Part shown: one piece after another, positions 1,456 to 24,120 of the stretch | Position numbering within the stretch: position 1 is the first letter of the stretch | Layout of the letters: each line of letters begins with the position of its first letter | NCBI RefSeq assembly: GCF_040450955.1 | Contig: NZ_CP144373.1 | Coordinates: 186,001 to 250,000, forward strand | Source of the DNA: Thermodesulfovibrio sp. 3907-1M | GTDB taxonomy: Bacteria; Nitrospirota; Thermodesulfovibrionia; Thermodesulfovibrionales; Thermodesulfovibrionaceae | Length of the DNA stretch: 64,000 nt | Direction of reading: 5' to 3' | Position numbers and translations under genes: made by a program | Notes under the pieces: model-generated | The model's database searches: none | What the model saw: the letters and a program-made list of their open reading frames with translations, nothing else | What the model was told of the DNA's origin: nothing

Positions 1456-2085
1456 GTGAAAATTCAAAGTTTTATTTTAGCATTAATAATTTTTGTGATC
1501 TTTTGCTTTGATATAAAAGCAGAGGTGATAGGTACCAACGGTGCAACCTATCCAATTGCAGAACCAGATGCTTACGAAGAACTCATGAGTAAAGTAAAAA
1601 GTATAAACTGGCAAGCAGTTATGAACAAGTATAAGCAATCTTTACCAAAGGTAACTAAAGTTTCCTTAAATCTTGGCAAGGCAAGGCAGGATAGAATGTT
1701 TAGCGTTGATCCTACCTATACACTTCCCTATGACATCGTTGATGAGAATGGGAAAGTGATATATCCAAAAGGTTTCAGTTTCAATCCACTTGATTACATG
1801 AATTTTCCTTACACACTTGTATTTTTCAATGCAAACTCAGTTGAAGAAATAACATGGTTACAAAAACAGGATTGGTTAAAAAACTGGAATGTTATGCTTT
1901 TTGCAACCCAGGGAGATGTTTTAAAGGCAGAGAAAATGCTTAAGAAAACAGTTTATATGGCTACTCTTGAGATGGTAAAAAAGTTTCACGTAAGTAAAAC
2001 TCCATCAATATTGAGTGCTCAAAATAGAATGCTGGTAATTAATGAAATAGGGGTTTACAAAAATGGTAAACAGACTTCTAAATAA
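1456..2085 (+). CDS. traW: TraW, F-type T4SS assembly protein
   Basis: GTG start one base after the traN stop. Residues 1-22 form a Sec signal peptide; the mature protein begins with GTNGATYPIAEPD, matching the 'G..YPI.EPD' start of F TraW. TraW is periplasmic and works with TrbC in pilus assembly. Length 209 aa is normal for the family. The 3' end overlaps traU by 23 bases, so translation is probably coupled. Confidence 0.85.
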   Translation: MKIQSFILALIIFVIFCFDIKAEVIGTNGATYPIAEPDAYEELMSKVKSINWQAVMNKYKQSLPKVTKVSLNLGKARQDRMFSVDPTYTLPYDIVDENGKVIYPKGFSFNPLDYMNFPYTLVFFNANSVEEITWLQKQDWLKNWNVMLFATQGDVLKAEKMLKKTVYMATLEMVKKFHVSKTPSILSAQNRMLVINEIGVYKNGKQTSK

Positions 2086-3067: not shown

Positions 3068-3816
3068 AAACAATCATAATTTTAGCATCCCTTGGCTTGT
3101 TTGCTCTTGTAGGCTATGGACAATCACTTGAGGGGATGGTAAATTCAGTTAATCAGAAAGCTAAAAATTTAAATGTACCTAATATCCCACATAATGAAGA
3201 AGCTATTAAAAAAGCCCAAGAAGCATATCAGATGTCGCAGTCTCCAGTTTTTAAGATGCATGTGGAAGAATTTAAACAAGAATTAAAAGCCATTCTGCGA
3301 GGTGAAAAAGCAGATAAACTTACACAGTATTATTCTCAAATGAAGAAAAATAATATTCTTTCGGAGAATGAAAGAATATACATCTTTGTCTCATCAAGTA
3401 TGCCTGAAACAACAATTAGAAATTACATCAAACAGGCATCAAAAATTGGAAGTAATATATATTTTGTGATGAGAGGAACAATTGGAGGCATAAAAAAAAT
3501 AACTCCTACTGCACAATGGATCACTTCAGTTATAAAAAAAGACCCTTACTGTAAAGGTGAATGTGAAATGTATCCTGTGAAGTTTCTTATAGACCCGTTT
3601 CTTTACAAGAAATACAACATTCAAAGGGTGCCAGCAGTGGTTTACGTGAATGGACTTGAAAATCCTGAAGGACTCAGCGAAGGGCTTAATTCGGTAAAAG
3701 TTAAAAACTTTTTTGTATCTTATGGCGATGTATCTCTGGAATATCATTTAAAACTTATAGGAGAGAGGGCAAAGAATGAAAATATTAAAAATCTTGCACT
3801 CAACATTGGCAATTAG
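3043..3816 (+). CDS. trbC: TrbC, F-type pilin assembly protein
   Basis: The frame opens at 3019, but the ATG at 3043 is preferred: it follows AGAGGGTG and starts a signal peptide (MLFRKNVLKTIIILASLGL). About 257 aa. The C-terminal half has the TrbC signature IYIFVSSSMP followed by a thioredoxin-like region with VMRGTIGG and RVPAVVYVNG, typical of F-type TrbC. Its start overlaps the traU end by 25 bases and its end overlaps the next gene by 41 bases, so this is one tight operon. Confidence 0.85.
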   Translation: MLFRKNVLKTIIILASLGLFALVGYGQSLEGMVNSVNQKAKNLNVPNIPHNEEAIKKAQEAYQMSQSPVFKMHVEEFKQELKAILRGEKADKLTQYYSQMKKNNILSENERIYIFVSSSMPETTIRNYIKQASKIGSNIYFVMRGTIGGIKKITPTAQWITSVIKKDPYCKGECEMYPVKFLIDPFLYKKYNIQRVPAVVYVNGLENPEGLSEGLNSVKVKNFFVSYGDVSLEYHLKLIGERAKNENIKNLALNIGN

Positions 3817-4393
3817 TGTTTTTTGTTTTACAGTTTCGGCTTATGCATCAGGAACAGGCATTGAGTTTAAGGAATATTCCTACAAGGACGAAGGGGATAT
3901 AATTCAGTATCCTGTTACCGATACTTTTGTAATTACTGACGCAAAAAGAGCTCCTTTAAGCGCATTTGTTCCAAGCCAAAAAATATTGCTAAGCCTAAAG
4001 GTGGAAGAACCTGCCCCTGAACAGGAAATAAAGCCATCAAAACAACAGGAAAAATTACAGGAAAAAGAATTGAATAAAGTTGAAAAAACATCAACTCAAT
4101 GTTCTCATACAGTGTATTTTGAATTTGACAGATATAATTTAGTGCCATCAGAAAGAAAAAGATTAGATGAAAATTTCAATTGTTTTAAAGATAAAGAGGT
4201 AGAAGTTTTAGGGTATGCAAGCCCTCCAGGTCCTGCACGCTACAACCTTGTTCTATCTGCTAAAAGAGCACAAACAGTTGCTGATTATTTAAAGACCAAA
4301 GGAATCACTTTGTCCTTAATCAAAGGTATGGGTGAAACTTCTGAGAGTAATATAGAAGCGATGAACAGAAAAGTAGAAATCAAATGCAAATAA
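3776..4393 (+). CDS. OmpA-domain periplasmic/outer-membrane protein
   Basis: 205 aa. Signal peptide at residues 1-24 (ending SAYA). A charged Gln/Lys/Glu-rich stretch follows, then an OmpA C-terminal (peptidoglycan-binding) domain from about residue 112: VYFEFDRYNLVPSE, then SAKRAQTVADYLKTKG and NRKVEI. The ATG has the Shine-Dalgarno GGAGAGAGGG. An OmpA-like protein is not a core F tra gene. Its position between trbC and the pilin suggests it anchors the secretion channel to the cell wall (inference). Confidence 0.75.
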   Translation: MKILKILHSTLAISVFCFTVSAYASGTGIEFKEYSYKDEGDIIQYPVTDTFVITDAKRAPLSAFVPSQKILLSLKVEEPAPEQEIKPSKQQEKLQEKELNKVEKTSTQCSHTVYFEFDRYNLVPSERKRLDENFNCFKDKEVEVLGYASPPGPARYNLVLSAKRAQTVADYLKTKGITLSLIKGMGETSESNIEAMNRKVEIKCK

Positions 4394-4418
4394 TTTAAAA
4401 AGGAAGGGGGTGAAGTAT

Positions 4419-4721
4419 ATGCAAACAAAAATACTTTTGGGCGGGATAATTGGATTATGGGCAGTTATGTTTGTTGCCCCCGAAGCGATGGCTATCGTTA
4501 GTACTCCAGCTCAGGGTACTTTTGCTTATGATGTTTACAAAATAGCGGTGGAGGATATTCTTAAGGGACCAATTGGATTTGTATGTGGCATTGGAGCTAT
4601 AGCTTTAGGTGCCGTGAATGCAATTAAGGGACAGGTGTTTACTGCTATTCCTGCTGTTTTGGGTGGTGCTGCTTTACTTAAGGCGGATTCTATCGTTAGT
4701 TCTCTCAATATGATTTTTTAA
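4419..4721 (+). CDS. traA: TraA-like pilin precursor
   Basis: About 100 aa from ATG 4419, which follows AGGAAGGGGG by 8 bases; an in-frame GTG at 4410 is less likely. A long leader with a hydrophobic core ends at PEAMA. The mature part carries two hydrophobic helices (GPIGFVCGIGAIALGAVNAI and AIPAVLGGAALL) separated by a short basic turn, the TraA/VirB2 cyclic-or-linear pilin layout. It sits directly before traL and traE, as in F. Confidence 0.75.
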   Translation: MQTKILLGGIIGLWAVMFVAPEAMAIVSTPAQGTFAYDVYKIAVEDILKGPIGFVCGIGAIALGAVNAIKGQVFTAIPAVLGGAALLKADSIVSSLNMIF

Positions 4722-4768
4722 AAAATAACAACAGGGGCAGGGAGGGTGGGCGTAAAAGAGGTTGTAAA

Positions 4769-5035
4769 ATGAGGTATAGGGTACCACAATATTTGCATAA
4801 ACCACATCAAATATTGTTTATGGAATCTGATGAATTTGCTATGGTTATGCTGTTTTTCGTATTTGCTTTGATATTTGGGTATATTTTCTGGATTTTGATG
4901 TTTGTAGTTCCCTGGTTGTATTTCAAGTCTAAAAAGAAATATCCAAGAGGTTTTCTTAAACATTTCCTGTACAAAATAGGGCTTATCAATTTTCAAGGTG
5001 CTCCTAACTTCTTTGAGAAAAAATTCAACGAATAA
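4769..5035 (+). CDS. traL: TraL, T4SS inner-membrane protein
   Basis: 88 aa. Begins YRVPQYLHKP, as TraL proteins begin 'YRFP..L'. A hydrophobic hairpin follows (residues about 24-52), then KKYPRGFLKHFLYKIG and a charged tail. TraL is the VirB3-like partner of the pilin. Order traA-traL-traE-traK-traB is conserved with F. Confidence 0.8.
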   Translation: MRYRVPQYLHKPHQILFMESDEFAMVMLFFVFALIFGYIFWILMFVVPWLYFKSKKKYPRGFLKHFLYKIGLINFQGAPNFFEKKFNE

Positions 5036-5075
5036 AAAATTTTTTTAAAACAAAAATATGCAAGGGGTAATATCT

Positions 5076-5252
5076 ATGCAAAGTATACAAAGGAGGCATT
5101 CAATTATGGTAAGCGATAGGGTACATAAGGAGTTAAAGAAACTGAAAGCGGAGCTGTTAGTGGAAAACAATATAGAGGTTCGTTCTCTTGGTGCGGTAAT
5201 AGAATATATTGTTGACTATTACAAAAAAGCCAACCAAAAGGAGAGGGAATGA
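5076..5252 (+). CDS. Small ribbon-helix-helix-like protein inside the tra operon
   Basis: About 58 aa from ATG 5076 (AAGGGGT 8 bases upstream). ATG 5106 has a better Shine-Dalgarno (AGGAGG, 9-base spacer) but would cut off the predicted beta strand RRHSIMVSDRV. Pattern: basic strand, then VHKELKKLKAELLVEN, then SLGAVIEYIVDYY, as in CopG/Arc-type DNA-binding proteins. A DNA-binding protein between traL and traE is not part of F. It could be a local operon regulator. Its end overlaps traE by 4 bases. Confidence 0.55.
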   Translation: MQSIQRRHSIMVSDRVHKELKKLKAELLVENNIEVRSLGAVIEYIVDYYKKANQKERE

Positions 5253-5821
5253 AAATTCAAAAGTATTTTGAAGAAAAAGCAAATTACATTTATGGGGCAA
5301 GGTTATTAAAATTTGCTGTCATATTCCTATGTATCCTGTTGGCTGTTAACAGTATTGTTACTGTTAGTCTGTATAAGTCTCAAAAAATAATCATTATTCC
5401 GCCATCAATAAGCACTCAAGTTTTTATATCTGGCACAGATGCCTCTGATGAATACTTAAAAGCAATGGTAAGATACGTGTGTCAACTTACGCTTAATTAT
5501 AATCCGGCTGTTGCAAGAGCTCAGTTTAATGATTTTCTTAAACTTGTTTCTCCCTCTGTTTATCCTGAGTATCAAAAAATTTTCTATGATCTTGCCACAA
5601 GGATAGAAGCAGGTAATGTGTCAAGCGCTTACTATGTAACTCAAATTAAGGTTGAAAGACAATCAGGAGCAATAATAGTTTCGGGGTTTCTCTCACAATG
5701 GACGCAGGACAAACAATTCATTACAAACGAAACAAGACAATACAAGCTGAAATACAAAATAGAAGATGGTAAATTTCAAGTTTATGAATTTAAAGAATAC
5801 AAGGAAGGAGAGAGAGAATAA
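5249..5821 (+). CDS. traE: TraE, T4SS VirB5/8-like assembly protein
   Basis: 190 aa, one N-terminal membrane helix (residues about 20-42), then a periplasmic domain. The segment YLKAMVRYVCQLTLNYNPAV and the following FLKLVSPSVYPEY match the F TraE pattern. The stop codon overlaps the traK start by one base (taATG). Confidence 0.85.
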   Translation: MKIQKYFEEKANYIYGARLLKFAVIFLCILLAVNSIVTVSLYKSQKIIIIPPSISTQVFISGTDASDEYLKAMVRYVCQLTLNYNPAVARAQFNDFLKLVSPSVYPEYQKIFYDLATRIEAGNVSSAYYVTQIKVERQSGAIIVSGFLSQWTQDKQFITNETRQYKLKYKIEDGKFQVYEFKEYKEGERE

Positions 5822-7098
5822 TGGTAAAAAAGTTATTTATAGTTTTAACACTTTTATTAACAGTACCTTTTACAGTTTATGCACAAACTGGGGATTTGTG
5901 GCAAACAAAAGGGAATGCTGTAGTAAGAGAATCACCCAGTACTCAGGGGGCTCCTATTCATTATCTTAAGCAAGGGGTGGTTGTTACAGAAATAGAAAAA
6001 CAAAACAATTGGTTAAAAATAAAAACTCAATCTGGGGTGGAAGGTTGGGTACATTCATCTTTGTTAGCCCCTGTAACAAAAGAACAAATGTCTCAATGTG
6101 AAGGGGTTAAGGGATTTTCTGCTGCCTGTCCTGTTAATAGAAAAGTGGAAATTAACAAGGGAGAATCTGTCTCCGTAAATTCTACAAAGCCTCAGGCACT
6201 TCCATTTGGCAACTTAAATAACATACCGCAGGCAGCTCAAAAACAGGAAAATGCTCCTTTAGATAGCATAACACTACCAAACAATATTCCGGTGGAACAA
6301 GCATCTGGGGTAGTTACCTCTTCATCTTTACAGTCTTTGCAAAACAAGAACAGCCAATCTCCATCTTCTCCTGTTTTTCTTCTTGAAAATGCTCCTGAGT
6401 TTGCGTCTCAAGAATTAATGGGAGAAATTTCGGGGACAAGTTTCATAGTGGGACCTGAAAAAGCAACTGCTGTTAAGATGTCATCTTCGGATATAAACAG
6501 AGTAGTTTGCCCTGTGGATATAAAAGATGTTGTTTATTCAGAAGAAAAAGGAATACAGGTAAAAATTTCAGGTAAAAATGCTTTTGTGAAGTTTTTAATA
6601 AAGAAAATAGGGGCAAAACATGATTACTCTAATATACCAGTTGATATTTATGTGGTTTGTGGTGATAAGGTCTATTCCATTATTGCAGTACCAGATAAAA
6701 TACCTGCTGTAACAGTTTATTTACAAGATAAAGAAATGAAAATCAAAGAAACAATGGACAAATATCAAGGCATGGCTTATGAAAAACAAATAGTTAATTA
6801 CATAAAAGAATTTATGGCAGGTAGAGTTCCACCAGAAGCAGAAATGATTAGACAAAACAAAGAATACAACCTTTATCAGGACATAAAAATAAGAGAAGTT
6901 GCTTTATACACTCTGGAAGGAGTGGGGATGAACGTTAGAGTATTTCATGTAATTGCATCCAAAGCTGTTGAGATAAAAGAAAAAGATTTCCTAAGAAAAG
7001 AAATAACCGAATCTCCACTTGCTATAAGCCTTGATAGACTTAAACTTAATCCGGGTGAAAGGGCAACTTTACTCATTATAGAAAGTAAAAGGGGGTAA
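5821..7098 (+). CDS. traK: TraK with N-terminal bacterial SH3 domain
   Basis: 425 aa, longer than the roughly 240 aa usual for TraK. Signal peptide 1-21 (VYAQ). Residues about 25-85 form an SH3_3 domain (NAVVRESPSTQGAPI, WLKIKTQSGVEGWVHSSLL). A Gln/Ser/Pro-rich linker follows, then a TraK domain from about residue 200 (ISGTSFIVGPEKATAVKMSS, NRVVCPVDIKDVVYSEEKGI). TraK is the secretin-like outer-membrane ring component that pairs with TraV and TraB. The SH3 domain probably binds peptidoglycan (inference). Confidence 0.8.
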   Translation: MVKKLFIVLTLLLTVPFTVYAQTGDLWQTKGNAVVRESPSTQGAPIHYLKQGVVVTEIEKQNNWLKIKTQSGVEGWVHSSLLAPVTKEQMSQCEGVKGFSAACPVNRKVEINKGESVSVNSTKPQALPFGNLNNIPQAAQKQENAPLDSITLPNNIPVEQASGVVTSSSLQSLQNKNSQSPSSPVFLLENAPEFASQELMGEISGTSFIVGPEKATAVKMSSSDINRVVCPVDIKDVVYSEEKGIQVKISGKNAFVKFLIKKIGAKHDYSNIPVDIYVVCGDKVYSIIAVPDKIPAVTVYLQDKEMKIKETMDKYQGMAYEKQIVNYIKEFMAGRVPPEAEMIRQNKEYNLYQDIKIREVALYTLEGVGMNVRVFHVIASKAVEIKEKDFLRKEITESPLAISLDRLKLNPGERATLLIIESKRG

Positions 7099-7103
7099 CG
7101 AAT

Positions 7104-8312
7104 ATGGAAAAGAAACAAAATGTAAAAGACATAAAAACAAAATTGACTGAAAAGTTTAACAATCTCAGCCCGGAAAATAAAAGGAAAGTAATTATGATTC
7201 TTGTAATTATAGCAATTATTTTCGTAGGGACAATTGGATATATTTGGTCAAGAGGAGGAAATGTTCAACAGCGTGTAGTAGAGAACAGAGAAACAACAAA
7301 AGAAATTAAACTTGATTCTGGAATGCTTGAAAAAACTCAACTTGCTGAATCTCAGAGGAAAATAAGTGAACTTCAGGAAAAAGTAAACATGATATTAGAA
7401 GACAAAAAGAAAATGGAAGAAGAACTGAAAAAGAAAGAAGAACAGGAAAAACTTGAAAAAGAAAAAGAAAAACAGGCAAAAATGACACCACCGGCTTTTA
7501 ATCCACCGCCCCCACATACTCCAATAGCTAATATGCCGCCAATTCCATCAGGGGAACCGGGGGTTATTAAAACACCAGAGCCACCAAAAGTTGAAACAAT
7601 TGGAGGAATAGGCATGGTTAGTCAACAAATACAAGAAAAAAAAGAACCAGAGAAAAAACAAGACACAAAAAAAAAGTATTATTTACCAACTTCTTTTATG
7701 GAGGCGACCCTGCTTTCAGGCTTAGATGCACCAGCGATAAGCAAAGCGGAGGGAAATCCGATGCCAGCACTGTTCAGGATAAAAGCCCCAGCAGTACTAC
7801 CCAACAAAGTAAAAGCAAATCTTAAAGGATGTTTTGTGATTGCAGAAGGACTTGGCTCTCTTGCAGACGAGAGGGCACATCTGAGGCTTGTATCCCTGAG
7901 CTGTATAGATAGAAAAGGAAATGCGGTTATAGACCAGAAGGTGAAAGGATTTGTAGTTGACAACGACGGCAAAATTGGACTTCGTGGTAGGGTTGTATCA
8001 AAGATGGGAGCTCACATAGTGAGGTCGTTGATTGCAGGACTTTTCGGTGGAATAGGACAGGTAGCGGGAACACAGGCATACACTTACAATGTTACAGGTT
8101 CAGGTACTATAACAACTCTGGATACAGGTAAGGCAGCACAGGCAGCAATTGGCGCAGGAGTACAGCAGGCGGCTCAGAGTATCCAGAAGTTTTATCTTGA
8201 ACTTGCTCAGCAGACAATTCCCGTTATAGAGATACAGGCTACGAGGAATGTCACCCTTGTTATAAGTGAGGGCGTGGAGCTGGAAATCAAGGAATATAAC
8301 TTGAAAGATTAA
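7104..8312 (+). CDS. traB: TraB, VirB10-like channel protein
   Basis: 402 aa. One transmembrane helix (residues about 30-47), then a charged coiled coil rich in Lys/Glu (about 75-125) and a Pro-rich linker, then the TrbI/VirB10 beta-barrel domain (YLPTSFMEATLLSGLDAP, then GCFVIAEGLGSL and ADERAHLRLVSLSC). TraB spans the periplasm and links the inner membrane to the TraK/TraV outer ring. Five bases after traK. Confidence 0.9.
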   Translation: MEKKQNVKDIKTKLTEKFNNLSPENKRKVIMILVIIAIIFVGTIGYIWSRGGNVQQRVVENRETTKEIKLDSGMLEKTQLAESQRKISELQEKVNMILEDKKKMEEELKKKEEQEKLEKEKEKQAKMTPPAFNPPPPHTPIANMPPIPSGEPGVIKTPEPPKVETIGGIGMVSQQIQEKKEPEKKQDTKKKYYLPTSFMEATLLSGLDAPAISKAEGNPMPALFRIKAPAVLPNKVKANLKGCFVIAEGLGSLADERAHLRLVSLSCIDRKGNAVIDQKVKGFVVDNDGKIGLRGRVVSKMGAHIVRSLIAGLFGGIGQVAGTQAYTYNVTGSGTITTLDTGKAAQAAIGAGVQQAAQSIQKFYLELAQQTIPVIEIQATRNVTLVISEGVELEIKEYNLKD

Positions 8313-8326
8313 TAAGAGGGAAGAAG

Positions 8327-9043
8327 ATGAGAACGTCTCTCTACGAAGGAGAAAAAATCGTATATATCGCAAGGAAACACTGGATAGTTTATTTTTCAGC
8401 AATTTTAATAATGCTTATTGGTGTTGCTTTTACTTACTATTTTAAAGAGCCTTTAGCACTTATTGTGGGAGTAGTGGTATTAGTCTGGACTCATATTGAA
8501 AGAATAAGGCACTTATGGATAGTTACAGATCGCAGAGTTTTGCTTGAATACGGCGTATTTGCATTGAACACTAAAGAAACTCCTCTTGATAAGTTAAATA
8601 ACATATCTATAAAAAGAGATATTTTAGGTATGATTTTTGGTTATGGAACTTTACTCATTCAGTCTGCGGCAGAGATGGGACTTACAGTAGCCCGCTGGAT
8701 AGCCAAACCTGAACTTTTTGTTCAGGCGGTAGCTCAAGCACAAAACACAAACAAAATGGTAAATACAGAGAATTTTATGGAATGCCCTTATTGTAGAGAG
8801 ATTATCAAAAAAGAAGCAGTCAAGTGTAGATTTTGCGGTAGCTTTCTTAAACAGGTGGAAGAACAAAAAAACTATAAATCTTCTCTAACAGCACAATCCT
8901 TAGAAGTTAAAAAAGAAAATGAGACAGAACCCGTTTTCCAAAAAAACGAAGAATTTTACAGTAATAATAAAAATATAGAAACAGAAAATCAGGATTTTTT
9001 TGCAAGAAAAACAGAAATATGGCGACCAAAAAAATCAGAATAA
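8327..9043 (+). CDS. PH-domain membrane protein with C-terminal zinc ribbon
   Basis: 238 aa. Two N-terminal membrane helices (about 20-50) lead into a bacterial PH domain (bPH_2-like: WIVTDRRVLLEYGVF, TPLDKLNNISIKRDILG). A CPYC...CRFC zinc ribbon stands at about 151-168, and a polar Asn/Glu-rich tail follows. Not a known F tra product. Its position between traB and traV suggests an element-specific accessory. Confidence 0.65.
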   Translation: MRTSLYEGEKIVYIARKHWIVYFSAILIMLIGVAFTYYFKEPLALIVGVVVLVWTHIERIRHLWIVTDRRVLLEYGVFALNTKETPLDKLNNISIKRDILGMIFGYGTLLIQSAAEMGLTVARWIAKPELFVQAVAQAQNTNKMVNTENFMECPYCREIIKKEAVKCRFCGSFLKQVEEQKNYKSSLTAQSLEVKKENETEPVFQKNEEFYSNNKNIETENQDFFARKTEIWRPKKSE

Positions 9044-9066
9044 CAAAAGAAATAAAGGAGGAAAAC

Positions 9067-9516
9067 ATGAAAAAATATTTAATTTTTTTAGTTTGTCTTT
9101 TACTGATGGGTGCTTATGGTTGTGCCTCAGTAGTGAACCCTTATAGTGAATCCTTTACTTGTCCTTTAATGGAAGAGGGGAAATGCGTACCTATAAAGGA
9201 AGCCTATAATGAATCATTGAAAGGATACACTTTAAAGCTTGAAGAAACCAAAGACGCAAAAAATTTAGCTAAAGAATATGACCCTGTGCAAGAAAGTTAT
9301 AGAACAGCGTTATTTGATAAACTTACTAAATTACTCAGAGACCCAAAAACTCCAATATTAGCACCACCAAAAATTGTAAGAGTGATGATTCTTCCTTATC
9401 AAGATTCACAAGGTAAAGAATTTTATTCTACCAGATATATCTATCTAGTGGTTGAAGACCCTCAATGGATATTGCAAAATATCAATACCTTGCCATCCGA
9501 AGAATCAGAGCAATAA
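9067..9516 (+). CDS. traV: TraV, T4SS outer-membrane lipoprotein
   Basis: The frame opens at 9019, but ATG 9067 has a perfect AGGAGG upstream and starts a lipoprotein signal peptide with the lipobox-like AYGC. About 149 aa. The Cys pair in FTCPLMEEGKCVP and the C-terminal RVMILPYQDSQGKEFYSTRY are typical of TraV, the VirB7-like lipoprotein of the core complex. Confidence 0.8.
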   Translation: MKKYLIFLVCLLLMGAYGCASVVNPYSESFTCPLMEEGKCVPIKEAYNESLKGYTLKLEETKDAKNLAKEYDPVQESYRTALFDKLTKLLRDPKTPILAPPKIVRVMILPYQDSQGKEFYSTRYIYLVVEDPQWILQNINTLPSEESEQ

Positions 9517-9579
9517 GGAGGGGATATAATGTTTGAAATAGGGGATAGAGATGATTTTATTTATCAAAAAAAACCACAA

Positions 9580-11025
9580 GAAGACACCATCTTCTATAAG
9601 ATGGTGATGAATTGTGATATAATTATAACATGAGAGCTTTGAGGATAGAGCTAAACAAAATAGATGATAAAACTAAAACTATTCTTGGTTATCTTACATA
9701 TCATGCTGGGAAACTTTGGAATGAGTGTAATTATCTCTTACATAATAAATTGGCTAAAGTAAATAAGTATGATATATACAATAAAATCAAAAATACTTCT
9801 ATTCATAAAAAATCATTACATAGTAGAACAGCTCAAATTGTTATAGAAGAACTTGTCAGGGCTTGGAAAAACTTTTTTGACCACCTTAAAAATCCATCTA
9901 AATATCCTAACAAAGTAAAACCACCTAAATATGTGGATAAAACCGCTCCCCATAGAACTATAACCTACGATAAAACAGGTTTTAAGATAAAAGGAAATAC
10001 AATCAGACTAAGTATTCCAAAAGATTTAAAAGAATATCTAAAAGAAAAGTTTGGCTTCACTGATGATTATATCTATATAAATACTGGTATAGATTTACAA
10101 AAACTAAACATAGTAAATATCCAAATAGTGCCTTATAAAGCCTATGGAAATATAACCTTTAGATTGAATATAATCTATGAAAAGGAAATAGAAGATACAA
10201 AAAATAAATACGATAAAGTAATGGCAATAGATTACGGAGTATCTAACTTTGCCACCATTGTAATAGAAAATGAGCCTATATCCTATATAGTAGATGGTGG
10301 AGGTTTTCAATCTATTTTACAAAAGTATCTCAAAAAATTAGCCAAATGGCAAAAGAAGAAAGATAATTTAAAAAATAAAGGACTACCATATAATAAAGTA
10401 GAAAAGGTGTTGCATAGAATACAGAAAAAGATAAACAACCTTATAAGAGATTACACTCATAAAGTTTCTAACTTAATAGTGAATTTAGCCAAAAAATACA
10501 ATGTTTCAAAAATAGTAATTGGAGATATTCAAAAAGTTAAAAACAAAGAAAGTAACTTACCAGATTTACTAAATCAAATGTTAAGATTACTGCCATATGG
10601 TAAAGTATCTAATGCTTTGGAATATAAGGCAAAAGAGCATGGTATAGAAACTATACTAATCAACGAAGCATACACATCAGGTGTAGACAGCACTATTAAT
10701 AGTGTTGTTTCTAAAGAAAACTATACACCTGATAGAAGAATAGAAAGGGAATTATTTAAATCATTAAATGGATTAATCAATGCCGATGTAAACGGAGCGA
10801 GAAACATACTAAAGAAATTCAAAAAGAGCTGGCATGATTTAATAAGTGGTTTAAAGCAAATTACAAGGTTAAGAGTTTTTGGAAAACTAAAAGGTAGCCC
10901 TGTGTTTGCTACATATAGGCAAATAGGGGTAGTAGGGTGTAGTGACCACCTGTATAGGATAAGGTGCATTAATAATGCACAAACTCCTATAGAAGCTACC
11001 ACTTCTTAAAGTGGTAGTAGTTCAC
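9580..11025 (+). mobile_element. TnpB-only IS200/IS605 (IS1341-like) element
   Basis: Left end: perfect 9-bp hairpin CACCATCTT/AAGATGGTG (9585-9593, 9598-9606). Right end: perfect hairpin CTACCACTT/AAGTGGTAG (10996-11004, 11009-11017) overlapping the tnpB stop. Subterminal hairpins, no inverted-repeat ends and no obvious target duplication are the IS200/IS605 pattern. No tnpA is present, so mobility would need a TnpA in trans. Exact cleavage positions are estimated. Confidence 0.75.
9630..11009 (+). CDS. tnpB: TnpB RNA-guided nuclease homologue
   Basis: 459 aa. RuvC-I Asp in VMAIDYGVSNFATI (about residue 201) and RuvC-III in LINADVNGARNI (about 383) are present. At RuvC-II the sequence is KIVIGDIQKVK, with Gly where the catalytic Glu of typical TnpB stands. 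The zinc-finger cysteines usually found before RuvC-III are absent; the segment reads AYTSGVDSTINS. This resembles the Cys-less thermophile OrfB clade. Start ATG overlaps the TGA that ends the interrupted host ORF. The guide (omega) RNA would come from the 3' end of the element. Confidence 0.85.
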   Translation: MRALRIELNKIDDKTKTILGYLTYHAGKLWNECNYLLHNKLAKVNKYDIYNKIKNTSIHKKSLHSRTAQIVIEELVRAWKNFFDHLKNPSKYPNKVKPPKYVDKTAPHRTITYDKTGFKIKGNTIRLSIPKDLKEYLKEKFGFTDDYIYINTGIDLQKLNIVNIQIVPYKAYGNITFRLNIIYEKEIEDTKNKYDKVMAIDYGVSNFATIVIENEPISYIVDGGGFQSILQKYLKKLAKWQKKKDNLKNKGLPYNKVEKVLHRIQKKINNLIRDYTHKVSNLIVNLAKKYNVSKIVIGDIQKVKNKESNLPDLLNQMLRLLPYGKVSNALEYKAKEHGIETILINEAYTSGVDSTINSVVSKENYTPDRRIERELFKSLNGLINADVNGARNILKKFKKSWHDLISGLKQITRLRVFGKLKGSPVFATYRQIGVVGCSDHLYRIRCINNAQTPIEATTS

Positions 11026-11160
11026 TCTGATTTTGAAAAACTTCCTTTAAATGTGAAAATTGCCATTTTAAAAAAGTTAAATCCCGAAAAAATTTCACAA
11101 AAACAAAAGTAATATATTTAACATGAAAACTATAAAAACCAAAAAGGGCAGGTGATTATC

Positions 11161-12558
11161 TTGAAAAAAATTGTAGCTATTATCCTAATTTTACTTTTTA
11201 CTTCAGGAGGGGCAACAGCTGGCTGGCTGGATACATGGTTTGACCAGCATACCTCAACGGCTCCTAACTACTTTGAAGGGCAGAAGCGTGGTTATTTTAC
11301 AGCAGGCTCTTTTAGTGCAAGAATTCCGACTTCTACTGATTACCTTGTAAGTATAGAGAAACCAAGACTTAAAGCAGGCTGTGGTGGTATTGACATATTC
11401 ATGGGGGGATTCAGTTTTGTCAACTTTGATTATCTGGTTCAGAAACTTCAAAGACTTATTCAGGCAGCACCAATGGTAGCATTCCAGATAGCGTTGAACA
11501 CTTTAAGCAGTACTCTTGGAACTGAAATTAAGGACGCTGAAAAAATTATTGATGCTTTAAACAGTCTTCAGTTAAATGAGTGTGCAGTAATGAAACCTTT
11601 TACTACAATAGACTTAACTAAAGATAATGTGGAATCTCAGTTTGTAGCGGCAAGTGAAGCTGCATTAAAAAGCACGGGATTTACCGATCTATGGAAAAAT
11701 CTTATGGCTTTCGGGTCTAACGTTAAAACTCAATCACAGGACAAAGTCCCTGCAACTAATTTTATAGAAGGTTGTAGCACAGAACTTAATAACTTATTCT
11801 CAGGTAGCAGAAACGGAGTACTGGAATACTTCGGGCAGCGGTACGGAGATACTGATATTATTCCCTACATAAGAGCATTGGTTGGAGACGTCGTTATAAG
11901 AATAGATAACAATGAAACCGCAAGCGTTCACAAATATACACCTGGCTGTTCTGAATCAGTTTTTCAGGCTTTGAAGGAAGGAAAACTTTATAGAAAAAAT
12001 AGCCCTGAAAGTGCCTGCGTTGAGGATACGTCACAATCTCTAAGGGATAAAGTTGCGGATATACTTGAGAGGGCTAAAAATTCAATAGCAAGCAGAACCA
12101 ATCCTCCTCAGGGTTATCTTTCAATCGCTCAGACGTCTCCTATACCCGTTCAGTTAATGCTTAGATATGCGGTTCAATCTGGAGATCAGTCAGTTACTGC
12201 TGTCATTGCAGATCCTGTAGCAAAAGGACTTTTTATGCAAGCATATCTTGACATTTACAGCAAGCTACACAAAGCGGTTGGTGCTTTACAGGCAGTATCT
12301 GAAAAAACAAATGATCCAAATAAACCTGACAAACCCTGTAATTTCGCTCCGTTGTTACTCAGTCTTCTTGAAAAAATGGAAAGAAAAATGTGGGAAGGAG
12401 TAGATACGGTTGTGGGAATTTACAGAAACTCAATGGGCGAGGTGGAATCTACCCTCAAAGTTGCACAGGCGTTTGAATCTTTTCAAGATAAGGTTTATAA
12501 TGAGCTGTCTCAGAAATACGGTAAATTTGTTGCTCACAGGGCTATATATGGTCAGTAA
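11161..12558 (+). CDS. traH: TraH, conjugative pilus assembly protein
   Basis: About 465 aa. TTG 11161 (preceded by GGGCAGGTG) begins a clean signal peptide (MKKIVAIILILLF); GTG 11152 in the same frame is the alternative. The mature start GWLDTWFDQ, then GYFTAGSFSARIPT and GCGGIDIFMGGFSFVNFDYL, are diagnostic of TraH. A Cys-rich centre and C-terminal helices follow. In F, TraH acts with TraG in pilus assembly. Confidence 0.9.
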   Translation: MKKIVAIILILLFTSGGATAGWLDTWFDQHTSTAPNYFEGQKRGYFTAGSFSARIPTSTDYLVSIEKPRLKAGCGGIDIFMGGFSFVNFDYLVQKLQRLIQAAPMVAFQIALNTLSSTLGTEIKDAEKIIDALNSLQLNECAVMKPFTTIDLTKDNVESQFVAASEAALKSTGFTDLWKNLMAFGSNVKTQSQDKVPATNFIEGCSTELNNLFSGSRNGVLEYFGQRYGDTDIIPYIRALVGDVVIRIDNNETASVHKYTPGCSESVFQALKEGKLYRKNSPESACVEDTSQSLRDKVADILERAKNSIASRTNPPQGYLSIAQTSPIPVQLMLRYAVQSGDQSVTAVIADPVAKGLFMQAYLDIYSKLHKAVGALQAVSEKTNDPNKPDKPCNFAPLLLSLLEKMERKMWEGVDTVVGIYRNSMGEVESTLKVAQAFESFQDKVYNELSQKYGKFVAHRAIYGQ

Positions 12559-15355
12559 AATGCAAAGACAAAGTTTGATAAGTTTAATCTTTATATCCTT
12601 AATTTTAGTGCCCGGTGTGGTTCAGGCTGCCACATGGGAGTATATCACGTATGGTGGCTATGATGCAGCCGTAAAAGCATGGAAATTAGTTGCTTTAATC
12701 CTTAGTGATAGAAACTACAATGGATTAATTATCTCTGCGGCAGTTCTTGGTGCTATATGTATTTTTGTTGCTACTTATATCAAAATAGCAACTGGGGCAA
12801 AAACAGGGGGATTAAGCTGGGCTGTACCAGTTCTGGCTGGGTTAACACTGTATGCAGCACTGGTTGTCCCAAAAGACTCGCTTGTAATTTACGATGAAAA
12901 ATTAAACAGAGGACCCTATCAGATAGATGGTATTCCAAGAGGTATAGCCACGCTGGCTGGAATTTTAAACAAGATAGAAATAGGAATGATTGAAATTTTC
13001 TCAACAAGCGTTGATCCTGCATCTGATTATAGACTTAACTCTGGAGGAACAGGCTGGGAAGTAATTGATTATGCAGACCCTGTAATGCTATCTGCAAATC
13101 TTAGGCAAACACTTTATAACTATATCAAGGACTGTGTTTTTGTTGAGCTGGCAAGACCGGGAACAATACTGGATGCAGATAAAATAGCAAGTGGAGAGCA
13201 GAAATACGATACAGTAATTAGTGAATCAAGGAATCCTTCTCTTTATACGGTGAAATATGATAGTAGTAATCCCAATGGTGTTTCTGCTACCTGTACAGAA
13301 GTAGGGAATTATTTAATTGGTGTAATGAATAACCCGGCCACGTGGGAAGAGGCATTCAAAAATGCATGTGCAGCAAGAGGGTTTGATGTAACAGTTCCTG
13401 CGTCTTATAATCAATGTAAAACCTTAATAGAAAGTACGTTAGCAAAAACATTCAAAGATAATAATTCCATTACGATACCTCTTTTTGGAGCTCAGCGGAC
13501 ACTTGGTGAAGAATTACAGAATGTTATTTTTAGTTCAGCTCCGTCAGTCAGCATAAGCAGGCTTGCAACAACCAATACAATGTCTCAGTTTATCGGACTT
13601 GCCGTTCATGCCAACAGCTGGTTACCAGTTATAAAAGAGTCTCTCATGGCAATTGCAGTATCCGCCATTCCATTGTTAACGCTGTTTATTGTTACTCCTT
13701 TAGTAGGAAGGGCTTTATCTATAATAACAGGCTTATTTGTATGGTTAACTCTCTGGGGGGTTATAGATGCAATTATACACGGACTTGGAGTTACCCTTGC
13801 GGAAGACGCAGCTGCTGCCATGTCATTTGGTGGAAGAGTTGATGTAGGGTTAGCACAAGTACTTAGTTATCCCGGATATGCGGCTAAGGTTGCTGCTACC
13901 TTTGGTGGATTAAGGTGGTCTGGTCTTATGATTGCAAGCGTTATAACAGCCATGATTATCAGGTTTGGTGGAACTGCACTTGCAATGCTTGCTGGTAGCA
14001 TTGCATCTCTTCCCCAGGGAAGTGGACAACAATATGGAGTTAGTGCAATAAGAAATCCTGAAGGTATCTTTAAAAGTGAAATACTTCCAGCCACGACCAT
14101 TGGAGGCAAGCTTTGGGCGGCAGGAGGAGCTGATAATTACGCAAAAGGGCTTAAAAATCTAGATATAGGAACAGATGCGGGTAGGGCGTTGGCAGGAAAA
14201 GCTCTTGGATCTGATTACATAGCAAAGGCTACAGAATATTCTGCACGACATTCCATGGGACAATCAATGGGAGGATGGGAAAAAGCTAAAGCGTTAGGAA
14301 TGACCCCTGAGCAAATGGGAAAAGCAGAGGTATTCCAAGGGGCTCAATTTACAGGAACTGGTTATGTAAGCCGAAAAGAAGGTTCTTATGTCTTAACAAA
14401 AGATGGATGGAGAATGACTGATGTCAATATGATACCTGTTACCACCGCTCTTGGTCAAAGAACAGAGGCAGCTAAGTCAAAACTTTATTCTTTGATGCAG
14501 GACGCAATAAGAACAAAAGGATTGGATGAAACCTACAAGTGGTTCAGTCAGCATAAGGATATGTTTACTGAGGGTGAAAGAGGACAACTTGAAGGGTTAT
14601 TTAGAAAAGGATTTCAAATACAAAAAGGATTTTCTGGGGATTCCGGGCACAGAGGGTCTATAACAGGGAGAGGTTCATTAGATGTAAACATGGGAACTCA
14701 AGTTGGTGGAGGAGCTATTCCTGCTGGTAAAGCCAATATGGGGGGAGGTCTTTCTGCTAATACTGTATATACAGATGAAACTTATGGGTCCAGTCGGAAT
14801 TTTGACCAAGTACAGAATGAAATTGCAAGAATATTTTCGGATGGTTTTTCCCGTTTTCAGGGTAGGGAATCTTCAGATGCTACAGGGAGTGAATGGTCTA
14901 AAATGTTTTCTGATTCAACGAAATATTCTGAAGCATCTAAATACGCTCAAGAATATAGAGAAACTGAAAGTTTATCCAGCAGTCTGAATGTTAATACCAT
15001 GCCTTTAATTGTCTCTGCTATTGCTCAAGAAAGATATGGTGGTGCACTTTCTGTTGGATTTATGAATTCAGATGATGCCTATATTAAAGCACATAAGGAT
15101 GTTATTGATGCAATATACAGAGGAGACTACGGTATGATAAAAGAATATGTCAAAAAAGTGGAAAATAAAACAGGTTTAAAACTTGATGTAGGGAATTTTT
15201 CAAATACTGTGATGCAAAATATTGAGACTACACAAGAAAAAGTGGAAGGATATCCAATCTCTAATGCTGGAGCCAGACGGAATCCTGTAAAGACAAAAGT
15301 AACATATGGAAGTAAAGGGCGAGAAGTTTTAAATAACCCACCTAAAGGGAGGTAA
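12548..15355 (+). CDS. traG: TraG, mating-pair/pilus assembly membrane protein
   Basis: The frame opens at 12410 inside traH. ATG 12548 is preferred: it overlaps the traH stop by 11 bases and starts a signal-like segment ending VVQAATWEY. About 935 aa. The N-terminal TraG domain has membrane helices near residues 15-80 and again between about 360 and 480. The long soluble C-terminal half is rich in Gly, Ser and Lys. TraG serves both pilus assembly and mating-pair stabilisation in F. It ends the tra operon visible here. Confidence 0.85.
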   Translation: MVSKMQRQSLISLIFISLILVPGVVQAATWEYITYGGYDAAVKAWKLVALILSDRNYNGLIISAAVLGAICIFVATYIKIATGAKTGGLSWAVPVLAGLTLYAALVVPKDSLVIYDEKLNRGPYQIDGIPRGIATLAGILNKIEIGMIEIFSTSVDPASDYRLNSGGTGWEVIDYADPVMLSANLRQTLYNYIKDCVFVELARPGTILDADKIASGEQKYDTVISESRNPSLYTVKYDSSNPNGVSATCTEVGNYLIGVMNNPATWEEAFKNACAARGFDVTVPASYNQCKTLIESTLAKTFKDNNSITIPLFGAQRTLGEELQNVIFSSAPSVSISRLATTNTMSQFIGLAVHANSWLPVIKESLMAIAVSAIPLLTLFIVTPLVGRALSIITGLFVWLTLWGVIDAIIHGLGVTLAEDAAAAMSFGGRVDVGLAQVLSYPGYAAKVAATFGGLRWSGLMIASVITAMIIRFGGTALAMLAGSIASLPQGSGQQYGVSAIRNPEGIFKSEILPATTIGGKLWAAGGADNYAKGLKNLDIGTDAGRALAGKALGSDYIAKATEYSARHSMGQSMGGWEKAKALGMTPEQMGKAEVFQGAQFTGTGYVSRKEGSYVLTKDGWRMTDVNMIPVTTALGQRTEAAKSKLYSLMQDAIRTKGLDETYKWFSQHKDMFTEGERGQLEGLFRKGFQIQKGFSGDSGHRGSITGRGSLDVNMGTQVGGGAIPAGKANMGGGLSANTVYTDETYGSSRNFDQVQNEIARIFSDGFSRFQGRESSDATGSEWSKMFSDSTKYSEASKYAQEYRETESLSSSLNVNTMPLIVSAIAQERYGGALSVGFMNSDDAYIKAHKDVIDAIYRGDYGMIKEYVKKVENKTGLKLDVGNFSNTVMQNIETTQEKVEGYPISNAGARRNPVKTKVTYGSKGREVLNNPPKGR

Positions 15356-19240: not shown

Positions 19241-20968
19241 ATGAGAGTAAAAAGGGCTTTTTCAAGTGCCATTCGCCCTGTTAAGGAAAAAGTGTACTTT
19301 TTCATCCCTTACAATGAAAGTATCATTTCTCTTTTTAAGCAACACAAGCTCAGATGGTCTCCAGAGTATCGTGCGTGGTATCTTGATTTAAATTATTTCT
19401 CATCTGTAGAAAATTTTATTGAGTCAAACAGTCAAATATTAAACCTTTATCCTGAAGAAGAGGTTATTTATCTTACGCAGTATCTTAAAGACTATTACAA
19501 CAAACTCAACAATGTTATAGAGTTAAGCAGAAAAGCAGATACAAACTTCCCTGTTCCTGTTCCTCAGGGTCTTTCCTATTATCCATATCAGCGTGCGGGG
19601 GTGGAATTCCTTGTTCGCAAGAAAAATGTTCTGCTTGCAGACTCAATGGGACTTGGTAAAAGCATTCAAACAGCTGGCTACTTTAACTGGCTTTTGAAAC
19701 AAAAAATCTACCCTAAAGCATTGGTAATCTGCCCTGCATCAGTAAAATACAATTGGCTTAAAGAATTAAATAAATGGCTAATTGAACCTTTAAAAATTGA
19801 AGTTGTTGAAGGTAAAAATGGATTCACTCAGGAAACTGCTGTTCATATTTACATTTTAAATTACGACATACTGAAGGATAAGCATTTTTACAACCTTAAC
19901 TGCATAGTGCTTGATGAAGCTCACTACATTAAAAATCCTGAAGCTCAAAGAACAAAGGAAGTTGTGAGAATTTGTAGAAGCAACCCCCACGCAAAAATCA
20001 TCGCCCTTACAGGAACTCCCATGCTTAACAGACCTGTGGAACTTTTCCCGATTCTTAATTTGTTATATCCTGAAAGGTTTAATGATTTCTTTAAGTTTAC
20101 TTTCAGATACTGTGCGGCACATAGAAAAGAAATACCGACAAAGCAGGGAATTAAAAAAGTATGGGACTTCTCTGGTGCATCAAACGTTGAGGAACTTGGA
20201 AGAATTCTAAGATCAACTGTAATGCTCAGAAGGGAGAAAAAGGATGTTCTCAGAGAATTGCCAGATAAAATTAGAACAGTTGTCCCTGTTAAACAAACTG
20301 TAAGCAACAGTTTCTTATCCCTTGAAGAAAGAACAAAAAACATTATAAACCAGATTCAGGAAATAAATAAGAAAATAAAGCAAATAAAGAAAGAAAACAA
20401 CAAAGAACTCTTACAGCAACTGAAAGCTGAAAAACTCCGCATACGCTCTGTTGCACTTCCATTAATAAACGAATACAGAAGAATGGCTTTTGAGGAAAAG
20501 AAGGATGTCATCGTGCAATTCCTTGAAGACACCCTTAACAATGAAAAAGTCGTTGTTTTTACACATCACAGAGATGTTGCAAAATTTTTCGGAGAAACAT
20601 TCCATCATCTCAAACCACCCGTTCTTACAGGGGAAACATCTGCAAGGGATAGACAGGCAATGGTTGAGTATTTTCAGTCTGGTAAATCTCCTCTGTTCAT
20701 AGCTACAATCATGGCTGCTGCTGAAGGCATTACACTTACTGAGGCAAGTACCGTTGTTTTTGCTGAATACGAATGGACTCCTGCGAAAATGCTACAAGCT
20801 GAAGATAGACTCCACCGTATCGGGCAGAAAAATACAGTCAACAGTTACTGGTTTGCACTGGTTAACAGTATAGATGAAATGTTCATCAATAAAATAGTGG
20901 AAAAACTTGAAATCCAGAAAAGTGTAATGATGGATAATGAATCTGAAGAAATTTTTATGATGGTTTAA
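19241..20968 (+). CDS. SNF2-family (SMARCAL1-like) DNA-dependent ATPase
   Basis: 575 aa. An N-terminal HARP-like region (residues about 10-65, with RWSPEYRAWYLDLNYF) precedes the SNF2 core: YPYQRAGVEFL, Walker A DSMGLGKSIQT, Walker B LDEAHYIKN, ALTGTPMLNRP, and motif VI EDRLHRIGQKN. Such proteins remodel or anneal DNA (fork reversal in the SMARCAL1 family). There is no Shine-Dalgarno before the ATG, consistent with a leaderless start. The function in the element may be replication or repair during transfer (inference). Confidence 0.85.
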   Translation: MRVKRAFSSAIRPVKEKVYFFIPYNESIISLFKQHKLRWSPEYRAWYLDLNYFSSVENFIESNSQILNLYPEEEVIYLTQYLKDYYNKLNNVIELSRKADTNFPVPVPQGLSYYPYQRAGVEFLVRKKNVLLADSMGLGKSIQTAGYFNWLLKQKIYPKALVICPASVKYNWLKELNKWLIEPLKIEVVEGKNGFTQETAVHIYILNYDILKDKHFYNLNCIVLDEAHYIKNPEAQRTKEVVRICRSNPHAKIIALTGTPMLNRPVELFPILNLLYPERFNDFFKFTFRYCAAHRKEIPTKQGIKKVWDFSGASNVEELGRILRSTVMLRREKKDVLRELPDKIRTVVPVKQTVSNSFLSLEERTKNIINQIQEINKKIKQIKKENNKELLQQLKAEKLRIRSVALPLINEYRRMAFEEKKDVIVQFLEDTLNNEKVVVFTHHRDVAKFFGETFHHLKPPVLTGETSARDRQAMVEYFQSGKSPLFIATIMAAAEGITLTEASTVVFAEYEWTPAKMLQAEDRLHRIGQKNTVNSYWFALVNSIDEMFINKIVEKLEIQKSVMMDNESEEIFMMV

Positions 20969-21161
20969 AAATTTTTCTCAGTTTCTTTCCAGACTTCTTT
21001 AAAGTTTTTCGATCAACAATAGACATTCCACATGTATTGCACTCATAAATTACATAATTAGAAATAGTTACAGATTTCCTTTTACAGAAAAGGGTTTCAT
21101 TTTTAATTTTCCTCTCCATTATTCCATCTTTGCAGAAAAGACACTTTTTAAATTTTTGCAT
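20955..21161 (-). CDS. YgiT-type double-CxxC zinc-finger protein
   Basis: 68 aa. CLFCKDGIMERK and YECNTCGMSIVDRK form two CxxC knuckles spaced as in the N-terminal zinc domain of MqsA/YgiT antitoxins, but no DNA-binding Xre domain follows. Tail-to-tail overlap of 14 bases with the SNF2 gene; 7 bases after the KOW gene, so likely the last gene of the parR operon or of the KOW transcript. Confidence 0.55.
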   Translation of the reverse strand: MQKFKKCLFCKDGIMERKIKNETLFCKRKSVTISNYVIYECNTCGMSIVDRKTLKKSGKKLRKIFKPS

Positions 21162-22544: not shown

Positions 22545-23276
22545 TTATAAAATTTTTTTAATAATGCTTTTTGAAAAGAAACTTTTCAGTATATTGAAGC
22601 TGGAAAAATCCATGTAAATAGTCTCAAGTTCGTTGCCCGATATTTCAATTTGCTTATTTTTTCTGTGGTTAATTAATTTGAAGTAGTTTGTGTAGTAATC
22701 TTTTTTCCAGCCAGAAGTGTCTTCTCTTTTTAATATTCTATTTTCAGGAATTATTTCTATATGCGGAAATTTCCTGAAAAGCAGGCTTTTTGTTTTCTCG
22801 TAAAGTTCTTTCAGTTTAAAATCTATCTGATACTCATTATATTCAACCCCGTGCAGGATCGCATCTCCTGTGCAATAAAATAAAACCTTTGCTATTGCAG
22901 TTCTGTGATTTCCCTCTCCTGAAATAAAAATTTTGTCATTTATTTTTGTGTAATGCATTACAGGTTCTTTTTTTGTTTTCTGAAAGTAGTAGTCAGGATT
23001 TTCAGCTAAAAGAGAAAGGTTTAAGGGCATTCTCTTACCTGCTTTAAGCATATCTATCCATGTTATTCCTATGTAATCAGGATGAGCAGTCCCTTTAACC
23101 TGAAAAACATTTACAGACTCAGAGTTTGACCAGTAATGGTAGGTTACAAACTTTTCCAGAGAACTTATTTCAGGATAAGGTTCAATGGTTTCATTTAAGA
23201 GACAGTTCTGTTTTTTTATCCATGCTATTACATCATCAGTATTGTTGGCTATAAGAAGATGTGGCTTTTCTAACAT
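22545..23276 (-). CDS. Unknown protein with ParB/Srx-like GxGNHR motif, between parR and parM
   Basis: 243 aa. The centre reads YTKINDKIFISGEGNHRTAI, which resembles the Gx(G/N)HR loop of the ParB/sulfiredoxin fold (nuclease or nucleotide-binding). The remainder is unfamiliar and very basic near the C terminus. It overlaps the parR stop by one base and lies 14 bases before parM, so it is made together with both. Fold and role are inference. Confidence 0.5.
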   Translation of the reverse strand: MLEKPHLLIANNTDDVIAWIKKQNCLLNETIEPYPEISSLEKFVTYHYWSNSESVNVFQVKGTAHPDYIGITWIDMLKAGKRMPLNLSLLAENPDYYFQKTKKEPVMHYTKINDKIFISGEGNHRTAIAKVLFYCTGDAILHGVEYNEYQIDFKLKELYEKTKSLLFRKFPHIEIIPENRILKREDTSGWKKDYYTNYFKLINHRKNKQIEISGNELETIYMDFSSFNILKSFFSKSIIKKIL

Positions 23277-23631: not shown

Positions 23632-23657
23632 GCAGTCTTAAGATTAATTGTAAATGC

Positions 23658-23859
23658 AGGTAAAGATAGGGTAAGGATAAGGTAAGGATTGATAAAGATA
23701 GGGTAAGGGCGGGTAAAGACCGGGTAAGGACTTTTTTAATCATCTTTTATTGAGGGAAAGTGCTTTACCTATACTTTACCCGCCCTTACACATACTTTAA
23801 CTGTCTTTACCTATACTTTAGCAATCCTTATCTGAGTTCTAAAGACCGGGTTAGGACTT
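23658..23859. repeat. parC: parC-like centromere: two opposed iteron arrays
   Basis: Array 1 (23658-23731): seven 10-11 bp repeats around GGGTAAGGATA or GGTAAAGATA. Array 2 (23762-23833): about seven repeats of the same kind in opposite orientation. A further near-copy (19 of 20 bases) of 23714-23733 stands at 23840-23859. Helical spacing and a place upstream of parR match R1-type parC, which also has two blocks of 11-bp repeats. Confidence 0.75.
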
Positions 23860-24120
23860 CTTGAAGAGTTTTTGGGTTAAAAATTCTTTTCTTGGTGTCC
23901 CTTGAGGGTAAAGGTATAAATCATTATTTTCAAAGACCCAAATTCTGCCACAATTGATACAAATAAACATTTTTGAAAAATATTTTTTAGGTTTCTTACC
24001 ATTAGCTAAAGCCTTTTCTGGATTATAGCGTTTAGGAATGTCTAACTTATCTGCCATATACAGAAATCCATCACAACGGGGACAGCGGAAAGAAAAATCA
24101 TAATCACCATTTTTTCGCAT
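23851..24120 (-). CDS. Zinc-ribbon protein
   Basis: 89 aa. CPRCDGFLYM near residue 13 and CINCGRIWVFE near 53 form a four-Cys zinc ribbon. A basic PKRYNPEKALANGKKPKKY stretch lies between them. AAAGGGGG Shine-Dalgarno. Possible nucleic-acid binder; the family is unknown to me. Confidence 0.55.
   Translation of the reverse strand: MRKNGDYDFSFRCPRCDGFLYMADKLDIPKRYNPEKALANGKKPKKYFSKMFICINCGRIWVFENNDLYLYPQGTPRKEFLTQKLFKKS

Follow-up and report, generated by a model that had tools for sequence, protein, structure and literature searches.

A probable two-domain protein of an unnamed family, with a predicted ParB/sulfiredoxin-like fold, encoded between parR-like and parM genes of a Thermodesulfovibrio conjugative element

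Introduction

Mobile elements are increasingly seen to use the ParB/sulfiredoxin (ParB/Srx) fold as a general nucleotide switch, and the majority of proteins with this fold are uncharacterised. Among orphan ParB folds on mobile elements, GxxR has been reported as the P motif of proteins that bind CTP, ATP or GTP (PMC12704722). For Osa, a ParB/Srx fold has been reported along with ATPase and DNase activities (PMC5512222), coupling proteins being its reported targets (PMC5696584), and disruption of orf10 in ICEHin1056 was reported to bring transfer down approximately 1000-fold (PMC3739013). Partition of the ParM type is likewise already known from an integrated conjugative element, in the form of the SrpMRC system of SXT/R391 (PMC4489591).

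Here we examine a locus of Thermodesulfovibrio sp. 3907-1M in which a protein of 243 residues, called X below, is encoded between a parR-like and a parM-like gene. The window is the whole stretch of DNA analysed, 64,000 nucleotides in length (NZ_CP144373.1, positions 186,001 to 250,000), and all coordinates are those of the window unless another contig or locus is named.

Results

Gene X and its operon

Conjugation genes from TraU to TraG (Table 1) mark the window as an F-type conjugative element, which belongs to a 1.94-Mb genome on a single contig. On the minus strand, the order is repeat array, parR-like gene, gene X, parM and KOW/NusG-like gene. The preliminary description placed a 243-residue protein between parR and parM, and we confirm it as a real ORF that overlaps the parR-like gene and has a clear ParM downstream. 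That description also took X to be translationally joined to both neighbours, which is borne out on one side only: the parR stop and the X start share TAATG, with GGAGG within the last parR codons, whereas 14 nt separate X from parM, which has its own ribosome site in an AGGAGG ahead of its ATG. The exact TAATG coupling, the internal ribosome site and the retention of every family-invariant residue argue that X is expressed and under selection.

Table 1. Positions of gene X, its predicted domains, its operon neighbours and other features discussed in the text
Feature	Position	Strand	Basis or remark
Gene X, subject of study, 243 aa, ATG start	22545-23276	-	ORF list
parR-like gene, 112 aa	23276-23614	-	Aligns with the ParR portion of ParR-ParM fusions in genus mates
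parM-like actin homologue, 310 aa	21598-22530	-	Pfam, NCBIfam and PHROG matches
KOW/NusG-like protein, 137 aa	21169-21582	-	Pfam/NCBIfam; 15 nt after parM
Candidate parC-like centromere: 6 GTAARG units, then 4 CYTTAC, opposite orientation	23650-23860	.	Repeat count
Predicted ParB/Srx-like N-terminal domain of X, ~residues 50-153	22818-23129	-	Alignment transfer from the model of the Methylomonas relative
GNHR of X, putative nucleotide-phosphate (P) motif GxxR	22902-22913	-	G122-N123-H124-R125
C-terminal alpha-beta-beta-beta-alpha domain of X, ~residues 153-225	22602-22820	-	Predicted, model of relative
F-type conjugation genes TraU, TrbC, TraE, TraK, TrbI/TraB, TraV, TraH, TraG, not contiguous	2063-15355	+	
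IS605-type OrfB (TnpB-like) between TraV and TraH of the tra cluster	9630-11009		
Fused ParR-ParM gene, locus L009	1483-2724		
Fused ParR-ParM gene, locus L010	1477-2625		
Fused ParR-ParM gene, locus L011	1285-2433		

On sequence grounds the 310-residue neighbour is clearly an actin-like ParM, with matches to Pfam ALP_N (3.7e-13), NCBIfam PRTRC_D (3.6e-22) and PHROG 'partition protein' (4.1e-42), and it passes the Pfam cut-offs for both ALP_N (50.4 bits against 26.3) and MreB-like_C (47.6 against 27.8). The 112-residue parR-like ORF gave no significant family match in the model searches. It aligns to the N-terminal part of fused ParR-ParM proteins from genus mates, and also to a separate upstream ORF in another relative. 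Upstream of parR lie 10 GTAARG/CYTTAC units, most of them at distances of 10-11 or 21 bp. Mononucleotide shuffling of this stretch, repeated 5000 times, never gave more than 4 units, and the array is likely a parC-like centromere. The GTAARG-type repeats form two convergent arrays with a spacing of ~10.5 or 21 bp. Another repeat array stands upstream of the parR of locus L097, and the stretch upstream of the fused parR-parM gene of genus mate G014 has no array of the GTAARG type.

The KOW/NusG-like gene probably closes the partition operon as its fourth member. Such a place is odd for an elongation-factor-like gene, and BLAST found no relation between this protein and a similar-looking one at an X-bearing locus (L022). 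A 68-residue zinc-ribbon protein at 20955-21161 bears a weak resemblance to the N-terminus of the MqsA antitoxin (E 0.0012, below the Pfam cut-off). Weak ParB_N matches were seen in the window's own genome at 167052-167231, 19 kb to the left of the window, and in G014 (C1:687149-687280), approximately 3.7 kb from the fused parRM gene; these elements may possess a true ParB-domain protein of their own.

Relatives of X and their conservation

X has no family match in Pfam (to E 1), NCBIfam, PHROG or the PADLOC defence models. A tblastn search against plasmid records returned 33 records at E 1. Five P. aeruginosa plasmid records show 36-40% identity over 77% of the protein, weaker relatives occur in Vibrio, Phaeobacter, Thioclava and Leisingera plasmid records, and other family members used as queries add Shewanella and Vogesella. 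A scan of genome contigs yielded six X loci out of 52 pattern matches. Within the phylum, a six-member X profile matched in 4 of 295 genomes, the window's own among them, and the single protein in one of 61, its own; X is present in one of 16 genus genomes. Five scans of viral contigs gave no relative, nor did phage records, and E. coli genomes contained no DNA match to the P. aeruginosa X-like gene. Among the papers listed by literature searches on integrative elements with ParM and ParR, on ParB/sulfiredoxin proteins of conjugative plasmids and on topA/PAPI-1, none dealt with these proteins. As far as these searches reach, X is a member of an undescribed and unnamed family.

X is conserved at ~30-40% identity in distant bacteria. 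In an alignment of 15 rows the invariant residues are G62, Y68, W73, L87, Y96, Y97, H124, R125 and A129; within the P motif G is kept in 14 rows and both H and R in all 15. This conservation in distant bacteria, together with the invariant HR, makes the gene and its motif more than a chance observation. A C-terminal REDT-GWK block (REDTSGWK in X) is retained by the core group and is missing or altered in the plasmid outgroups, whose matches to X end near residue 137-169, and this argues for two domains.

Genomic settings of the family

Several relatives sit within conjugation clusters. At one locus (L024) the order is TraU, TrbC, TraF-like, X, TraH and TraG. X follows a TIGR03751 conjugal lipoprotein at two more (L014, L018), in the former also coming after TIGR03749/TIGR03752 and before the TraC ATPase, and it lies near DotH/IcmK and a PLD nuclease at another (L023). 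A second setting is beside topoisomerase genes. X directly follows a topA-like gene in pUM505, p2014S05-249-1 and P. aeruginosa PA7, with ssb nearby in the two annotated plasmids pUM505 and p2014S05-249-1, and the P. aeruginosa elements with X beside topA were typed as conjugative. At three loci (L013, L015, L017) X adjoins or shortly precedes topB, in L017 after ssb. On Phaeobacter and Thioclava plasmids the X-like gene stands directly after a thermonuclease gene, and at L022 a DNA methylase was the sole recognised gene among the two X neighbours tested. Conjugation is not the setting everywhere, since Vibrio and Vogesella plasmids and one 8-kb Pseudomonas plasmid with X-like genes were typed as non-mobilizable.

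Predicted fold

Modelling with X as the lead sequence reached a pLDDT of 61, too poor in the N-terminal domain; with this model Foldseek placed human sulfiredoxin at ranks 2, 4, 5 and 16 (E 0.4-0.64), which is a hint only, and its VIA matches fell on the C-terminal part. When the same seven sequences were modelled with a Methylomonas relative in the lead, the best of the five models had a pLDDT of 82.4 and a pTM of 0.70, against pLDDT 52-64 for the other four, so that the confident fold is one model in five, of a relative, set beside a pLDDT of 61 for the window protein itself. This best model has a strand at residues 39-49, helices within 66-91 (one of them 76-91), strands at 101-104 and 111-113, G-N-H-R at 116-119, a helix at 117-129 and a strand at 134-144, followed by a helix, three strands and a helix. 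The order of elements in its N-terminal domain is that described for the ParB/Srx superfamily.

Ten of the 50 VIA-align matches listed are confined to residues 31-159, and all ten are Noc, ParB, pNOB8-like ParB, sulfiredoxin or free serine kinase. For Arabidopsis sulfiredoxin, 81 of 89 residues align (Z 4.6, rmsd 3.0). The Z values of the ten (3.5-4.7) fall below the threshold of 8 asked by the tool and are no proof by themselves; it is the agreement of all ten, rather than their Z values, that favours the ParB/Srx fold. Among the matches listed, the best overall fall on the C-terminal domain (kinesin-3 KLP-6, Z 7.3). This domain has a dsRBD-like order of elements, and several dsRBDs match it at Z 2.7-4.7, below the KLP-6 value; in the model, REDTSGWK sits at its first beta turn. 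The Osa structure is not among the 50 matches listed, which excludes nothing.

Foldseek against the PDB gave no significant match with either model. Against viral models, phage G Gp57 ranked first (E 1.1e-3) and a 'ParB-like N-terminal domain' protein second (E 0.016). Comparison by hhalign with alignments of 26 ParB, 11 DndB and 22 GmrSD proteins, taken from the 31, 12 and 25 loci respectively by way of a clean ORF, gave probabilities no higher than ~1%, and 91, 6 and 11 of 100 column shuffles did as well as the real comparison. Searching PDB sequences with X alone or with profiles brought up chance-like matches only. Single-sequence matches to a plant polyketide synthase and a methyltransferase, and to pcm-like or pilin models, were weak and inconsistent across family members, and these assignments were rejected.

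The string SGEGNHRTAI, which had been likened to the ParB/Srx nucleotide-binding loop, is present in X. The likeness is upheld, at a sub-significant level, by the predicted fold and by the GxxR P motif, but it does not extend to profile homology with ParB. From the models, the N-terminal domain of X probably shares the fold of the nucleotide-binding domain of ParB and sulfiredoxin. The C-terminal domain probably binds nucleic acid or a protein.

X and ParM outside the window

X had been put forward as a possible third partition component, to be checked by whether it always accompanies this type of ParM. A ParM profile run on the 21 X-bearing stretches matched in the window only; the 20 others (6-16.5 kb), which are not all independent and include four from P. 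aeruginosa, two from Phaeobacter/Thioclava and two from Shewanella, carry X without ParM. The ParM of the window matched in 24 of 290 phylum genomes, and X is absent from all 25 ParM loci outside the window within 1.5 kb on each flank. In the stretches searched X therefore occurs without parM and parR, and the proposal that it is a fixed partition component is not supported. In two genomes one contig bears both X and a ParM-like gene, at a distance of 7 kb in G170 (C2) and 21 kb in G144 (C28), in each case with the ParM-like gene at or beyond the edge of the stretch searched. These pairs favour a common element for the two genes and argue that X and ParM are not strictly separate. Since the genes are coupled here, and since G170 and G144 have both on one contig, a functional link between X and ParMR in the window's element is possible.

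Three genus mates (G014, G001, G005) encode the ParR-like part and ParM as a single ORF, 413 or 382 residues long, and at two further loci (L097, L099) a separate small ORF immediately precedes parM without X. ParR and ParM thus occur as a pair or as a single chain in the absence of X. We found no paper on a ParR-ParM fusion in our literature search; such fusions bear on how adaptor and filament could act as one protein.

X and the PFIN proteins

ICEHin1056 has, in a similar place, the series ssb, lipoprotein, orf10 and topB, of which the Osa-like orf10 is read from the opposite strand. The orf10 product belongs to PFIN/Osa (4.4e-30; 37.5% identity to R388 FiwA over 112 residues). X has no Pfam match to PFIN (PF22162), the X profile misses both FiwA and orf10, and in hhalign shuffled columns reached the observed score against PFIN/Osa in 47 of 100 cases; by these sequence comparisons X is not a PFIN member. 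On Vibrio plasmids, PFIN (Osa-like) genes at L126 (490-1062) and L130 (568-1101) adjoin DNA topoisomerase III genes, as orf10 does in ICEHin1056 and X in other elements. A PFIN search of 395 phylum genomes returned no match, but its control was silent as well, and the result is no evidence of absence.

Discussion

We propose, with doubt and confidence in about equal measure, that X is an orphan ParB/Srx-fold accessory protein of conjugative elements, serving transfer or establishment and co-expressed here with ParMR. We read X in this way because its place resembles that of orf10 and PFIN genes and because its fold is probably similar; the transfer effect of orf10 itself belongs to a different family than X. 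The N-terminal domain would most likely bind a nucleoside triphosphate via the G-x-H-R motif, and the C-terminal domain would contact nucleic acid or protein. X would then be a nucleotide-gated factor working on the element's own DNA or its transfer machinery, perhaps during transfer and perhaps at establishment. By analogy, its mode of action might be that of the ParB/Srx proteins of Osa type on IncW plasmids and of orf10, the Osa-like gene of ICEHin1056. Its placing in the partition operon of the window's element would have X made along with ParR and ParM, without being required for ParMR partition.

A protein of this fold could also be turned against competitors. The reported ATPase and DNase activity of Osa (PMC5512222) and its action on coupling proteins (PMC5696584) provide a precedent for a fertility-inhibition or competition factor that blocks rival conjugation or degrades rival DNA, and both the thermonuclease genes that precede X-like genes in Phaeobacter and Thioclava and the topB neighbours common to X and PFIN genes are consistent with it. 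We nevertheless think such a role unlikely, as X lies outside PFIN by Pfam, profile and hhalign alike and its position inside core tra clusters (L014, L018, L024) fits a self-serving use better. The overlap with parR, the closeness of parM, the two contigs that carry X together with a ParM-like gene, and the report that deletion of R391 partition genes also mildly affects transfer (PMC4489591) would all suit a third partition component, binding ParR-parC or ParM filaments and coupling, through a nucleotide switch, a ParB-like function to actin-type segregation. This proposal is made improbable by the 20 other X loci without ParM in the stretch searched, by the 25 ParM loci of relatives without X, by the single-chain ParR-ParM of three genus mates, which presumably works without X, and by a model that has no ParB-type HTH. 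It is a long shot, too, that X ties partition to conjugation, with bound NTP deciding whether the excised element goes to actin-driven segregation or to the transfer channel. If true, a protein of ParB fold would belong to a type II partition operon, a combination that we did not find described in the literature searched.

Sulfiredoxin has a motif in the G-x-H-R style, and both it and SerK rank among the best matches to the N-terminal domain, so that X could be conceived as a small-molecule kinase or redox-type enzyme of the Srx/SerK branch, unconnected with DNA handling. We hold this to be quite improbable, given that the X loci examined are on mobile elements, often beside DNA-processing genes, and that the second domain has a dsRBD-like order. 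That X is neutral cargo inserted between parR and parM, functionless in the operon, might be suggested by its occurrence in a single genome of the genus and by neighbours that vary between elements; the signs of expression in the TAATG coupling and internal ribosome site, and of selection in the retained invariant residues, render it very improbable. Judged from sequence and models, X represents a family without a name, its predicted fold of a known kind and its operon unusual. The family stands outside the Pfam, NCBIfam, PHROG and PADLOC models searched, recurs beside topoisomerase, ssb and tra genes in conjugative elements of distant bacteria, and has an unusual second domain. It offers a defined candidate, open to test, for an accessory factor of transfer.

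Canonical ParB of ParABS has a central HTH and a C-terminal dimerisation domain, where the model of X has the alpha-beta-beta-beta-alpha C-terminus instead, and it is partnered by ParA, whereas none of the operon neighbours of X (parR-like, ParM and KOW) is ParA. SrpMRC of SXT/R391 resembles the window in having ParM-type genes and a repeat array within an integrated conjugative element; its gene order differs, and the account of that system in PMC4489591, as far as it concerns these genes, describes srpM, srpR and srpC only, with no X-like gene between them. Sulfiredoxin and SerK match the N-terminal domain of the X relative at Z 4.6 and 4.5; no sequence relation to X was found, and their genomic setting differs. 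Osa/FiwA (PF22162) of IncW plasmids and orf10 of ICEHin1056 are, like X, encoded in conjugative elements near topB and ssb, and the ParB/Srx fold reported for Osa is similar to that predicted for X. A D-G-x-x-R-S/T string occurs, judged by eye, in four of seven PFIN proteins compared. In X, a longer protein with a second domain, the R is preceded by H, and Pfam, HMM and hhalign show no relation to PFIN. X also differs from the orphan ParB-CTPase/ParB-Srx proteins described in PMC12704722, having no profile match to PF02195 or to ParB, DndB or GmrSD and a C-terminus other than HTH plus dimerisation domain. As far as that account describes them, however, these orphans share with X the predicted strand-helices-strand-strand-GxxR-helix-strand order, the invariant arginine of the P motif and an occurrence, away from parAB operons, on plasmids and integrated elements.
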